Assembly (NCBI GenBank): GCA_027946365.1
Contig: JAPEUQ010000005.1
Span: 620,001-684,000 of the forward strand
Origin: Kalmusia sp. IMI 367209
Lineage: Eukaryota; Ascomycota; Dothideomycetes; Pleosporales; Didymosphaeriaceae
Length of the DNA stretch: 64,000 nucleotides
Direction: 5' to 3'
The notes under the pieces are model-generated. The model did not search any database. It worked only from the letters and a program-made list of their open reading frames with translations, and had not been told where the DNA came from. Shown here one piece after another: positions 11,851 to 48,122 of the stretch; the first letter of the stretch is position 1, and each line of letters begins with the position of its first letter. A program made the translations under genes and the position numbers.

Positions 11851-11975
11851 GGTAATAAGGATGCTCTGGTGTTGCCCGCGATGCTTGGCGCGTGGTGGTG
11901 AAGCGAACGGCATGGTCTCTAACGCGCTGACACGTCGGTCACGTGAGCTGCCAAACGTGGTTGGCTTCGAGCATA

Positions 11976-12089
11976 CAGCTCAGCCGACTGGTCAAAAAGC
12001 CAAGCCTACTGGTGGGGTCCGAGCTTCCTCGTGCCAAGTAGTAGGCTTGGCTTTCAAATTAACCGACCAGTCAGCTGAGCTTTACTAAT
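11976..12089 (+). repeat. Left terminal inverted repeat, itself near-palindromic
   Basis: Inverted relative to 15482-15595. Within the repeat the outer arm (CTCAGCCGACTGGTC, AGCCAAGCCTACT) is repeated in inverted orientation at the inner side (AGTAGGCTTGGCT, GACCAGTCAGCTGAG). A single end could therefore fold into a hairpin and resembles a complete small MITE with its own TA borders. Confidence 0.92.
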
Positions 12090-12119
12090 TACGAGTCTTA
12101 TGTAAAATATAAAAAAACA

Positions 12120-12330
12120 AGAGGATATAAATATGTTCTTAGCGTGTTTATATCCTATTCATCTCCTAATTGTAAACGCCTCCGTCTCTCAAGCAAATCT
12201 AGCTCCTTTTCCTTAATAGCTTACTACTCTACCTTTAGCTTAGTTTTTAATAGTTCTAATTCAATCTACTACCTTCGCTGATCTATTTCTTACTAAGAAA
12301 ATTGCCCAATAGTCCTAATAGAACGTGTTA
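12120..12330 (-). pseudogene. Possible RIP-degraded coiled-coil reading frame inside the element
   Basis: On the minus strand one frame reads as a charged coiled coil if TAG/TAA codons are regarded as former CAG/CAA (Gln) codons. Visible stretches are IELELLKTKLKVE and AIKEKELDLLERRRRLQLGDE, separated by such stops. At least seven stops, every one TAG or TAA, fall between 12120 and about 12300, which is the signature expected from C-to-T RIP mutation of Gln codons. It may be the remnant of a transposase C-terminus, but the family is not identifiable. Confidence 0.4.
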
Positions 12331-15300
12331 GTAATATGTTCTAAACGGATTATAGAATATTTATAAGGTGCACCTAGTAGATGGCCTTTATGAGCTAGAT
12401 CTTAAAGTTGAACTTCCTCGTGAGTTTTGCCGTAAGCCCCTACGCCGAATAATACTACTTAAGGATGCTCTAACAAAAAAAGAGTTAGGGTTAATAAAAT
12501 TCTCAGGCTGTTCCTTAATAGCTAAAGTACGACGCTATTCTAAAATGCGTTAGAAACACGTTTAGATCCTGTTTGGAATGTTATAAAGTATTACCTACTT
12601 TCACGAGCATATGACTACTGAAATCAAGCTACTAGAGACGTATCTCTCTATCTATGAGATACTCCAAAGCTCTAGCGAGTATTATACTAATCTATATCAC
12701 GCCTATTAAGCCTTTCACCACTAGAACACCTTAGGAACATGCTTAGAACGAGTTAGGAATATCTTAAGAACTTACTTTAAGATTATAGCTAGTATCCTTT
12801 ACTTTTTACTAGTTATATTTGACTTATTTACACTTTGCTCAACAGCATTCGTATGATGCCGTAACGTAGTAAAGATAATAGGGTTAATTAATAAGTAAGC
12901 CTCATTAAGCCTACCTATAATAAGTGGATAGCGCTTATACCTAGCCTATTCTTTGATAGGAGCTTCTTCATACTCTATAACGTGTTAGTAAGATGTTGTA
13001 AACATGTTCTAAATATAATAAATACTAATTAAAAGATCGCAAAGCTGATTATACTCAGTAGTAGTTTAATAGGTTAATAAAGATTTCATGCGTAACTATA
13101 ACTCATAGTTTATAGATACCAGAGTAGTTATACTTCTAAAGAAGTGTATAAGACAGAATACTACTGTCTTTTATATATACCATGCTAGTGGTCTAGCTTA
13201 TGGATCGATAGAATGGAGATATTACCTAAATCCTAGGAATATGCTTAGAACATGTTTTAAATATGTTGTGGCAGCTTACCTAGAAATTGGCCGCTATATA
13301 TATTAAGGGCGATTAACGTAAACGAACAATCTTCGCTAAAGGTAATATGGGACCAGGATAGCTTCTTGTCCAACACGTTCTCAACGTGTTTGAAAAGCCT
13401 TTGGAATGCCTTGAAATAGCTTTCTTGGTCCTGTTTCTCGATATATACTCTCGCGAGGGTGATAACTATTTAAGTCAATAACCTATTCTAAACGTGTTCC
13501 AGACGTGTTTACTTTTACCATATTCCCTAAGGAATTTTCTAATTATCATTTCGTTCAGATTTCGCTACTTAATTCATTTAAAAGAGACATCAACTTCAAA
13601 ATTCTCTTGTATTGATAGAATCTGAGCTTGTCCTTTAGTAAAGCATATAATCTGAATCCCAGAGGCATCATTATATATACCTTAGATATATCGCTATGTA
13701 ATTACGTTAGTAACACCTTTGCAACGCGTTTAGAACACATTTACGTATATCTACTACCGTCCTATGTCTTTGCTCATATTTAAATACTACGCCTGCAAAA
13801 TCTCATCCTTAAGGCTAATAGATAATTCGCTGTTTACGTATAATTACTAATATTCGATTAAGGTTATTAAACGAAATATAAAGATTTTATAATATTTAAA
13901 TATTATTCTGTTGATAGTATTACTGAAGCAAGGGCTCCGAAGAAATATATCTAGAGAAGGTTATTAATACGTTATAAATAGCTTTTAAACATGTTCTAAA
14001 CCTATTGTCAACCCTAGGTCTCTTATAGATTTTATAAGCTCCATAATCTCATAGATAATAGATCCTGGCGGCTTATTTGGTGGCGGTGGTAGGTATATAT
14101 GCTCTCTAATTAATATTAAAAGGATATATGGTATAGTAAGAAGGTCCTTAGGTATAAATAAATAGAAGACTACATTACAGGTTTTTATAAGAAGTTTTCT
14201 AGGGCCTTATGGATGGTTAATACCTGTTAAATAGTTTAGAACGCGTTTAGAACTTATTTTAAATGGCTTACTATAATTCTTTCTTCGACAGCTTCGTTAT
14301 TCTGTTATATAACAGCTAGTTGAAGAAGTAGTACTTTCCTTTATAGAGGATAGCAGTTCTTCTAGATAAGATATATTATATTTTATAATAAAGGATAATA
14401 ATTTTAGTAAATGAGGGTTCTTTGCTGTATCGTATAATTCTCACAGCATAAGAAATACTGGGGTTAGTTATTAATATCCTAAGACGTTAGGAACGTGTTT
14501 ATATTATGTTTATAATATAATTTTAAGGTAGTTACCTATATTGTACCTTGCTTTTCGTAAACGTAGTACACATATAGGTTGTTAGTCTATACAGGCAATT
14601 CCTTGCTAGAATCGTCTTTAAAGGCTTATGAATAGACTATTTATAGTAAGTATATTTATAACACGCTCTAAACGTGTTACGAACGCGTTTATATCTTAAC
14701 GAATTAGGTTAGGATCTAAGTAATCAATAACCTACTAAAGCTCTTAGATTAATCTCTAAATAGAATCCTCTACTTTAGTATATGTTAACGTTTGTAAGGT
14801 ATTATGAATATATTTACAATGTAATATATCTATACAACGTAACTTCCATTTTATTCCTCAGGCGCCATTTAAGAAAGGTGAGGTTACTGTAGTTGCTTAA
14901 TAGATTTGGCTCCAGCTATATTGCACCTATTAAAGCGCAATCATATTAGTATATATATAGAATACCTTATAAACATCTTAATAACGTGTTTTCGTATAGT
15001 AGACGCTACTTTGTATGGGATTATATTGAGAACATGTTAGGAACTACTTACTAATACCTGTTTAAGATTGAGGATATCAGTTGTATTTATATAGTATATA
15101 TAGCCATCCTTATATGTTTATGGATATTCTAGTATATATAAAGCAAATTCGAGCTCTGCAGTAATAAGGGGCTAAACTATACTATGGTAAGTATAATGGG
15201 CGCCGTAGGTTCCTCCTAAAAGAATGTTAACGTGTTATAAACATGTTTAGAATATCATAGTTTTAATCTACCTCTTCCTCTAATATGGTAGTGTTTGACT

Positions 15301-15408
15301 CTTCAATCTCTAGGTTAACTTGTTGTAAAATACTATCCTTAATATCAGGTAGCTCGGAGATATCCATTTGGTAAGGAATAGCCTTAGAACATGTTTAGAA
15401 TATGTTAC
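12321..15408. repeat. About 17 dispersed arrays of an 11-bp unit (consensus GAACRYGTTTA)
   Basis: Arrays of two to five head-to-tail units with an exact 11-bp pitch recur through the element. Clear examples: 12321-12364, 12542-12585, 12724-12778 (five units), 12978-13021, 13237-13269, 13371-13425 (five), 13479-13511, 13700-13743, 13965-14008, 14217-14271 (five), 14481-14524, 14659-14702, 14960-14992, 15030-15062, 15228-15260 and 15376-15408; 14785-14830 is weaker. The core varies among CGCG, CGTG, CACG, CATG and TATG, which are all related by transitions, so an ancestral AACGCGTT is plausible. Gaps between arrays are mostly 100-250 bp. None was noticed outside the element. Confidence 0.85.
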
Positions 15409-15481
15409 CATAGGTTGCGATATGTGAAGAATTACAAAATATAGAGGGCAAAAGAATACTATCATAAAGTGAAAATTTTTT

Positions 15482-15595
15482 ATTAGTAAAGCTTAGCTGA
15501 CTGGTCGGTTAATTTAAAAGCCAAGCCTACTGCTTGGCACGAGGAAGCTCGGACCCCACCAGTAGGCTTGGCTTTTTGACCAGTCGGCTGAGCTG
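15482..15595 (-). repeat. Right terminal inverted repeat
   Basis: Inverted copy of 11976-12089 with three transition differences. The element ends at ..GAGCTG followed by TA. Confidence 0.92.
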
Positions 15596-15597
15596 TA

Positions 15598-17044
15598 TCC
15601 TGGTTGGCTTCCGCCCGGGTCGAAATGTCCCGTCCGTCCCAGCGATCTCAAACTGTCAATCGTCGCGTCTCGGCACGAACGCCTTCGTCGGACCCTGGCC
15701 AACACTCATCATGCACCTGGCGCTGACAGAAGCATTGTTGACGACGGCTATACAATACGGCTAGCATGCCCTGGAGGTCGAGGATTGCAGCAAGGCGACG
15801 CCGCGCAGAGCCAGCCGAACACGACCTCGTTCGGCCCACTGGACACGCAGGACAGTTGCAAGATGTTTCAACCATTCGCATTGTGCCCTCCATGGCCCTC
15901 CATGGCGCATCCCTGCGTTGCCGGCCTTCGTTCATGCCAGATGCCCGCCTTCCCAGTTCGTAGGGCCGGACTTGCCGGTCCGACAGCGCTGGTGCTGTAC
16001 AAGTCCGAGCCCATTTGTAGTCTATAGATTGCTTGCAGTCACACGCCGGACTGCCGTCAGCCCTCGAGTCTCTGGTGCGTGGTGCCGCTTGCTTCAACGA
16101 GGAAAGACACGCAGCGGTACGAAGACAGCGGTACGAAGGCAGAGGACACGCAAGACTTGTTGTGCAGCATCGCCGCAACAAGGCGTTCCTGCCCGCCAGG
16201 CCCGGCCACTGGTGTTTGGTGCTTGGTGCTTGGTGCTTACCAGAGCCCCTGGTGCTGCGGCGCGGATACGTTTATAGAGTCTGACGCTCATCACAACGTG
16301 AAGCGCGGCGGGCCCTTTGGGAGGGCTGCTCGCCGGGCTGTGCCCGCCCGCTGACGCCCTGCACACGAGAGGCACTTGCGTCGTCTGCCTTCTCCGAGAC
16401 GGTTCCAAGCCCGCGCGTGTGGGCAGCGTAGATAGAAGCCTTGAATATAGTCCCCGAGAGCCTACACCTTTGCTACCTTTCTGACCCTCCGACTTTTTGA
16501 CCTCGTCTGCTCGGCGCTCGCTGCATGCAGCTTCCGAGCAGTGGAAGACCCCTAAAGACGCTAATTTCCGCCCGAGCTCATCCTGTGCCAAAGGACGCGC
16601 TGGACAAAACGGTGCCGCCCCGGCCGAATCCGCTACTGCCACCCGTGCTCGGTCAGCAACATTGGAATCATCAGAAAGACGCAAACCTTCTCTTCGCTAT
16701 TTCGCCGCCTTCGTCTTTGCCTGGATGGACTGACGCTGTCTGCGCCGCTTCCCTCGCAGCATCGCCGCCCCGTCACCGCTCGCTCCGCCCCATGCTCTAG
16801 GAGACGTCGCTCACTCGCGTTCCGCTAGCCTCACCTCCGTCCTCGTCGAAAGCGAACACAACACCTTTCTCTTCTGCGACTCCGCCTCTCGGGTCCTCCT
16901 CGTATCATTCTCCTCGTTCACTCTCTGCGTAGAGCACGGCGAATTGGCGTATAGCGCGTCGTGAAGCCTTTCCGGCTGAGGCCGGACAGCAGCGATCCCA
17001 GCAGCAACCCCCCGAGTCTCCGTCTTCCGCTACGTTGCGCGACC
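15598..17044. other. Intergenic and 5' UTR region upstream of the flippase gene
   Basis: Normal-GC DNA beginning right after the mobile element. Frames of up to 196 codons occur on both strands but have no motif and are not annotated. A short GGTGCTTG repeat (about 3.5 copies) lies at 16211-16240. The last few hundred bases are C/T-rich, as is common in fungal promoters and 5' UTRs. Confidence 0.55.
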
Positions 17045-47695: not shown

Positions 47696-48059
47696 TCAGC
47701 AAATGAACAAAGCCTGTTCTCTGACTACATCTTTCGCAAATGCGCTTTCCCAAAGAGCGTCGAAGGCAGCTGTCATAGCTTCTCGTGTCTTTGAGGGGTA
47801 CTCAGTAGTTAGTTGACAGCTTCTCAATCGGATCCTTCCACGTAATCCAGGGTCGTTAGCTGCACACGCGGCAACATAAAGCGGCATGGATAAAGAGGAG
47901 TCTGGTCCACAGCCCAGCGGTAGGGACTCCATAATTTCTATCAGTATGAGCAATGACGATCGTACTCGTAAAGAGTCACGGGAGTCTTTAAAGACGCGAC
48001 ATTGTAGTAGGAGGATTGCAGTCCAGTAGTAGCACTGCCCCACTGTTTCCAGGTGTTGC

Positions 48060-48122
<63 letters not shown>

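Follow-up and report, generated by a model that had tools for sequence, protein, structure and literature searches.

A gene-less, non-autonomous, MULE-like DNA transposon in an ascomycete with RIP-type mutation (element A, positions 11969-15602 of the window, the 64,000-nucleotide stretch of DNA that we analyzed) carries clusters of short palindromic sites throughout its interior, and these clusters are kept at collinear positions in three element families, A, B, and C. The 11-bp phase of the sites is confined to the inside of the clusters. Clusters in matching places across element families suggest protein binding along the whole element, and we think it rather probable that the interior of these elements is a cooperative-binding platform that loads a sequence-specific protein from end to end.

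Element A is bounded by TIRs of about 120 bp with 7-bp tips and by a 9-bp TSD, placed as follows.

11960-11968, + strand: left TSD copy GTTGGCTTC, the same as 15603-15611
11969-11975, + strand: left tip GAGCATA, 7 bp; the tip pair GAGCATA/CAGGATA is present in every copy read at both ends
11970-12089, + strand: left TIR, an imperfect palindrome in itself, 120 nt, 97% complementary to 15482-15601
15482-15601, - strand: right TIR, 97% complementary to 11970-12089
15596-15602, - strand: right tip, 7 bp, CAGGATA when read inward; other half of the tip pair in copies with both ends read
15603-15611, + strand: right TSD copy GTTGGCTTC, the same as 11960-11968

Each TIR is an imperfect palindrome, with about 70% agreement between the left one and its reverse complement. 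The TSD falls within the 8 to 11 bp of MULEs, since perfect 9-bp duplications flank 11 of the 12 family A insertions; in the twelfth (C25:269316-295064), the match covers 8 bp and is shifted by one. The TIRs of A (120 nt, 97% complementary) also agree with those of MULEs, which are often long, while those of B and C are 37 to 39 nt (86 to 87%) and those of D are degenerate. A TA target duplication of the Tc1/mariner type was ruled out by the flanks of the copies, as the tips lie 7 bp further out and the TSD is 9 bp.

The interior had been predicted to be non-coding, and no long open frame was found in it. In six frames, no stop-free stretch exceeded 234 bp in the window copy and eight others, and 73 to 95 stops per frame were common to all of these copies; column shuffles of A gave a longest + strand stretch of 190 to 399 bp (5th to 95th percentile). 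On the shared stops and the 234-bp maximum, we ruled out a RIP-ruined gene for A. The longest stop-free stretches in B, D, and C were 210, 240, and 234 bp (C from one copy), and B-C transversion rates in the three phases were 0.225, 0.196, and 0.207. The MULE transposase domain PF10551 had no match in the whole genome. Because the same kind of search found DDE_1 (PF03184) in 18 stretches, all RIP-damaged with internal stops, the absence of PF10551 is informative, with the proviso that a strongly diverged transposase would escape. The KDZ transposase PF18758 likewise gave no match, in a search whose controls were equally without match, so that this result carries no weight. MULEs rely on a transposase that they encode themselves or that an autonomous partner encodes; given the absence of PF10551 and of an open frame, we term the element MULE-like, membership of the superfamily not being proven. 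A known structured RNA was also ruled out, there being no Rfam match at gathering threshold in 11900-15700.

Autocorrelation of 12090-15481 against 300 dinucleotide shuffles gave the predicted excess at 11 bp (z 6.6) and a second one at lag 22 (z 2.9), with no other lag up to 60 above z 2.5; when the TIRs were included, lag 21 also reached z 3.2. The word AACRYGTT occurred 19 times in this interval, where shuffles averaged 0.1, and a single time in the remaining 60,368 bases of the window. When AAYRYRTT cores were paired, allowing up to one mismatch in 16 letters, a spacing of 11 bp gave 26 pairs, 22 bp gave 12, 16 bp gave 2, and every other spacing from 8 to 23 bp (8 to 10 and 12 to 15 bp included) gave none, so that the exact 11-bp pitch first noticed was borne out. 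In 200 dinucleotide shuffles, pairs at 11 bp had a mean of 0.05 and a maximum of 1. The arrays form 18 clusters between 12130 and 15406, throughout the whole element as had been claimed.

12130-12148, no strand: array 1, AAYRYRTT cores at 11-bp pitch
12322-12351, no strand: array 2, AAYRYRTT cores at 11-bp pitch
12544-12573, no strand: array 3, AAYRYRTT cores at 11-bp pitch
12725-12765, no strand: array 4, AAYRYRTT cores at 11-bp pitch
12979-13019, no strand: array 5, AAYRYRTT cores at 11-bp pitch
13238-13267, no strand: array 6, AAYRYRTT cores at 11-bp pitch
13372-13401, no strand: array 7, AAYRYRTT cores at 11-bp pitch
13480-13509, no strand: array 8, AAYRYRTT cores at 11-bp pitch
13701-13741, no strand: array 9, AAYRYRTT cores at 11-bp pitch
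13966-14006, no strand: array 10, AAYRYRTT cores at 11-bp pitch
14240-14258, no strand: array 11, AAYRYRTT cores at 11-bp pitch
14481-14521, no strand: array 12, AAYRYRTT cores at 11-bp pitch
14649-14689, no strand: array 13, AAYRYRTT cores; the second best model match is 14658-14691
14796-14825, no strand: array 14, AAYRYRTT cores; weak, best model match 12.1 bits
14961-14990, no strand: array 15, AAYRYRTT cores at 11-bp pitch
15020-15038, no strand: array 16, AAYRYRTT cores; weak, 10.1 bits
15229-15258, no strand: array 17, AAYRYRTT cores at 11-bp pitch
15388-15406, no strand: array 18, AAYRYRTT cores at 11-bp pitch

Eight clusters have three units, six have four, and four have two. The original prediction had about 17 clusters of two to five units, recurring every 60 to 310 bp from 12321 onward. 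Small clusters are real, but there is one more of them, the first (12130-12148) lies before that start, and by the threshold used the size range is two to four units; cluster starts are 59 to 274 bp apart, with an average spacing of about 190 bp. Gaps of about 40 bp on the left and about 75 bp on the right separate the outermost arrays from the TIRs, which are themselves without arrays. An array model built from sequence only (R1) had no match in the window outside 12122-15407 at E values up to 1. A helical phase between clusters was rejected, since 82 cluster-to-cluster gaps in four families showed no phase of 10 to 11 bp.

A host aminotransferase has its closest named relatives among ascomycetes, including Helicocarpus, Emmonsia, and Blastomyces, at 66 to 69% identity, and one unnamed hit reaches 71%. 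In the genome (42.8 Mb, 30 contigs), family A has 12 insertions, 10 of the full-length type and 2 deletion derivatives of 508 and 113 bp, each seen once and each with a perfect 9-bp TSD. Four copies are uninterrupted; in two copies on C12, two on C25, and one on C29, other sequence of about 6 to 39 kb separates the parts of the element. One insertion lies in two halves near contig starts (G000:C6:9882-10001 and C10:9520-12976), and since their 9-bp flanks, CGCTCGTAT and ATACGAGCG, are complementary, these are probably a single insertion split by rearrangement or an assembly break. Element A resembles a MITE in being non-coding with TIRs and a TSD, but not in length; MITEs are usually shorter than about 800 bp, the uninterrupted copies measure 3623 to 3634 bp, and only the two derivatives are short. 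Arrays were expected in other copies, and the long copies that we compared (eight of nine, the C29 copy excluded) carry them. Among the short forms, the 508-bp derivative retains the outermost arrays only and the 113-bp derivative none; the latter (G000:C5:561771-561881) is a solo element, the TIR palindrome alone between its TSDs. Because both derivatives have perfect TSDs, transposition may not need most of the arrays, unless the derivatives arose by deletion in place.

Two copies (G000:C12:2086465-2096055 and C29:1542118-1584581) have the interior oriented as in the window and the 7-bp tips swapped, as if the interior had been inverted between the TIRs. A repeat of about 6 kb is nested in two family A copies and also lies beside the C6 half element (L034-L035, L039, L042, and L050); part of it (1.1 kb seen) is present in one family B copy.

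Compared with the window copy, the eight other long copies (C29 again excluded) each differ by 192 to 453 transitions and 0 to 7 transversions; there are 9 transversions in the 508-bp derivative and none in the 180-bp end on C6, which shows 7 transitions. For each site where any of nine compared copies had C, we asked whether another copy had T. This was so at 330 of 333 CpA, 168 of 187 CpG, 103 of 172 CpC, and 174 of 520 CpT sites. The transitions look like repeat-induced point mutation (RIP), which prefers CpA, and the predicted variation of the cores by transitions held up. Decay of the cores from a single AACGCGTT, which had also been proposed, was not supported in that form. The 19 exact cores in the window copy are CGTG (8), CATG (6), CGCG (3), and CACG (2), and the less mutated copies mostly agree on the core state at a given unit. 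The shared states indicate that much of the core mixture is older than the spread of family A; it may reflect an older RIP trajectory or tolerated degeneracy.

A two-unit pattern with at most one mismatch had 85 genome places per strand, versus 20 for the reversed pattern. The first 100 pattern matches listed yielded family B (four copies, 5.5 kb) and family C (three copies, 3.8 kb), and a weak DNA match yielded family D (at least two copies, 4.9 kb), so that four array families are a lower bound. The TSD of B is a perfect 9 bp in one copy and matches at 7 of 9 positions in a second, with two transition differences; that of C is a perfect 9 bp in the one copy read, and that of D is not clean in either copy. 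The ends of B and C, CAGGTCAACC and CAGGTCATCC, resemble CAGCTCAGCC of A, and the start of D, GTGCATACAGGTAACC, is similar to the A tip. The four families have 26, 20, 23, and 12 core pairs spaced exactly 11 bp apart (shuffle means, 0.02 to 0.05); at 8 to 10 and 12 to 15 bp, A and C had none and B and D had one at 10 and one at 13 bp. Lag 11 was the strongest autocorrelation in A (z 6.7), in two B copies (5.4 and 4.3), and in C (5.7).

B and C share about 60% identity along their common length, and 29 units (43 aligned in B, 54 in C) stand at exactly aligned positions, where about 0.6 would be expected. Seen from B, cores had a purine/pyrimidine identity of 0.89, linkers of 0.80, and spacers of 0.78, and arrayed cores scored 0.899 versus 0.802 for non-arrayed AAYRYRTT words, a clear excess; seen from C, the values were 0.888 for arrayed cores and 0.875 for isolated words, a small one. 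Reversed A was 50 to 51% identical to B and C, versus 47% in the + orientation and same mode, in alignments partly anchored by the arrays themselves. Another mode, run in the + orientation only, gave 53 to 54% over fewer columns; A's identity is therefore near background and not decisive by itself. At up to 25 bp per step, the chains of reversed A with B and with C each took in 15 clusters (of the 18 in A), and at up to 15 bp 11 and 14; the B-C chains had 16 and 11 clusters at these tolerances. None of 400 gap shuffles reached the reversed A-B, reversed A-C, or B-C chains.

The orientation of A was a choice of two, made after unit overlap had been seen (A-B, 30/54 in reverse and 15/55 in the + orientation; A-C, 31/51 and 16/52). 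In the + orientation, the chains of A were weak and the reverse gave the signal, so collinearity in the + orientation was rejected: 8 and 36 of 400 shuffles (tolerances 25 and 15) reached the A-B chain, which is better than most shuffles, and 110 and 384 reached the A-C chain. For family D, collinearity with A, B, or C is not clear, as 18 and 274 of 400 shuffles reached the D-A chains, 83 and 332 the D-B chains, and 368 and 276 the D-C chains (same tolerances). Aligned unit overlap of A with D was alike in both orientations (18/50 and 18/56).

We also compared mutation in cores and spacers. The mutated fractions of CpG (cores/spacers) were 0.32/0.43 in A, 0.15/0.26 in B, and 0.15/0.28 in D; those of CpA were 0.59/0.71, 0.44/0.46, and 0.33/0.38, a difference that is clear in A only. 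Within the same NCRN four-base context, the core minus spacer difference came to -0.09 for A (permutations, 6 of 3000) and -0.10 for D (41 of 3000). That of B, -0.04, was not significant (357 of 3000), and the pooled value was -0.07 (0 of 3000). Masks shifted by 40 to 100 bp (n = 22) gave -0.04 to +0.06 (mean, +0.01), and none reached -0.07. The comparison of arrays with spacers across copies, which the original prediction had put forward, came out with the cores partly spared. The cause could be sequence context wider than four bases or protein occupancy. Cooperative binding on one helix face, proposed at the outset, is still what we infer, now with array conservation between families and partial sparing of the cores in its favor.

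On the platform reading, clusters of two to four palindromic AAYRYRTT sites, in helical register inside each cluster and with a mean spacing of about 190 bp between clusters, would let a DNA-binding protein load cooperatively along the whole element. The ligand would be a trans-acting protein of the transposon system, supplied by a partner not found here. Plasmid R1 parC, a bacterial partition site, has 11-bp repeats that ParR binds cooperatively; it shares phased 11-bp units with the element, and the cooperative loading proposed here, and differs in context. By analogy with VANC on VANDAL elements, the ligand might coat the element and keep it open or mobile, a tentative suggestion. That it is a transposase using the sites as a scaffold seems to us doubtful. 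We hold it unlikely, though conceivable, that a phased coat, loaded during the sexual phase, gives the element partial protection against RIP or silencing; such a coat would amount to a sequence-specific fungal anti-defense system, analogous to VANC, on gene-less elements whose length and spacing would be selected, and this extension we regard as just as speculative. Loss of the interior is possible, as the derivatives demonstrate, but each of them was seen once, 10 of the 12 insertions belong to the full-length type, and three families keep the cluster series.

The arrays might instead be plain transposase-binding sites of the subterminal-repeat type, for synapsis and cleavage, that reach further inward than usual. 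The short distance from the outermost arrays to the TIRs, and a motif common to four families with comparable ends, are what this would predict. However, the clusters are spread over 3.6 to 5.5 kb with no crowding at the ends and none inside the TIRs, and single insertions with no arrays or the outermost only have perfect TSDs, so we doubt this explanation. An improbable alternative is that the arrays bind a host factor of replication, cohesion, or the cell cycle, which would give the element timing or persistence. Palindromic, degenerate, phased sites would suit a dimeric host factor, no element-encoded protein is visible, and AACGCGTT contains ACGCGT, which we take to be the yeast MCB word; yet beyond the element the motif hardly occurs in the window, and CGCG makes up few of its exact cores. 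Very unlikely is a decayed minisatellite, an interior grown by slippage of an 11-bp unit with the clusters as functionless remnants, which would account for short head-to-tail runs of a single unit length but not for clusters collinear in A, B, and C, for B-C cores conserved above linkers and spacers, or for cores mutated less than the shifted-mask controls. We give hardly any credence to a tie between the pitch and RIP homology recognition, with the arrays as decoys or pairing triggers, for although RIP contexts in the elements carry heavy mutation and the pitch coincides with the triplets matching every 11 or 12 bp that are effective in Neurospora RIP, RIP is unable to create arrays, the cores are mutated less and not more than the spacers, and the available text of that study (PMC4858203) deals with several hundred base pairs and reports little or no effect of 11- to 15-bp periodicities in one construct.

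Arrays in the non-coding parts of a transposon have a precedent in Arabidopsis, contrary to the early remark that arrays across a whole element were not a known pattern: VANDAL elements carry such motifs in their non-coding parts, according to the available text of PMC5735166. There and in the corresponding portion of PMC10398659, short motifs repeated in the non-coding parts of VANDAL elements recruit the anti-silencing protein VANC, and related transposons carry related motif systems. The repeated motifs in non-coding parts and the related motif systems recur here; VANC, which acts in trans from its bound motif on the element as a whole, has a putative counterpart only. VANC motifs (e.g., YAGTATTAY) are tandem repeats that diverge rapidly between related transposons, with no fixed pitch described in those portions of the two papers. 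In the fungal element, by contrast, the motif, the 11-bp pitch, and the cluster positions are conserved between families, A, B, and C being collinear, and there is no gene. VANC on VANDAL elements is nevertheless the nearest functional parallel to the proposed platform. As far as the sections at hand go, the fungal MULEs Hop and Mutyl have the same 9-bp TSD, with 99-bp TIRs in Hop, and they encode a transposase (PMC5014426, PMC6446971), whereas here there is no open frame and the MULE domain was not found in the genome. Galileo and foldback-like elements, in the accessible part of PMC3688188, have several transposase-binding sites per element, as is putative here, but inside long TIRs; here the TIRs are without sites and the unique interior carries them. 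In the open-licence literature, as titles and abstract openings among the matches listed, there was no fungal element with such arrays.

These elements bear on what a transposon interior is for. Non-autonomous transposons are usually held to require little beyond their ends. Here, 3.6 to 5.5 kb of gene-less sequence keeps phased clusters, collinear in three families, with spacers near background in one comparison. A cluster series kept across three families while the spacers diverged points to selection on the interior. A concrete probe for fishing the protein is at hand in AACRYGTT cores spaced at 11 bp, and should the protein prove to act against silencing or RIP, fungi would have a counterpart of the plant VANC system.

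Three minor observations concern other repeats. Across 18 sources, the sole matches of the array model outside the families were both strands of L053:947-971 (G000:C1:1432446-1432470), a single two-unit array in surroundings of 49% GC. The 19-mer AAGGCGTTCTCAACGCGTT, probably another repeat, occurs on either strand at at least four places (G000 C1:644137, C7:242069, C11:266574, and C12:1624577). The window also holds a run of 23 TGT triplets at 48054-48122, with 96% matches.
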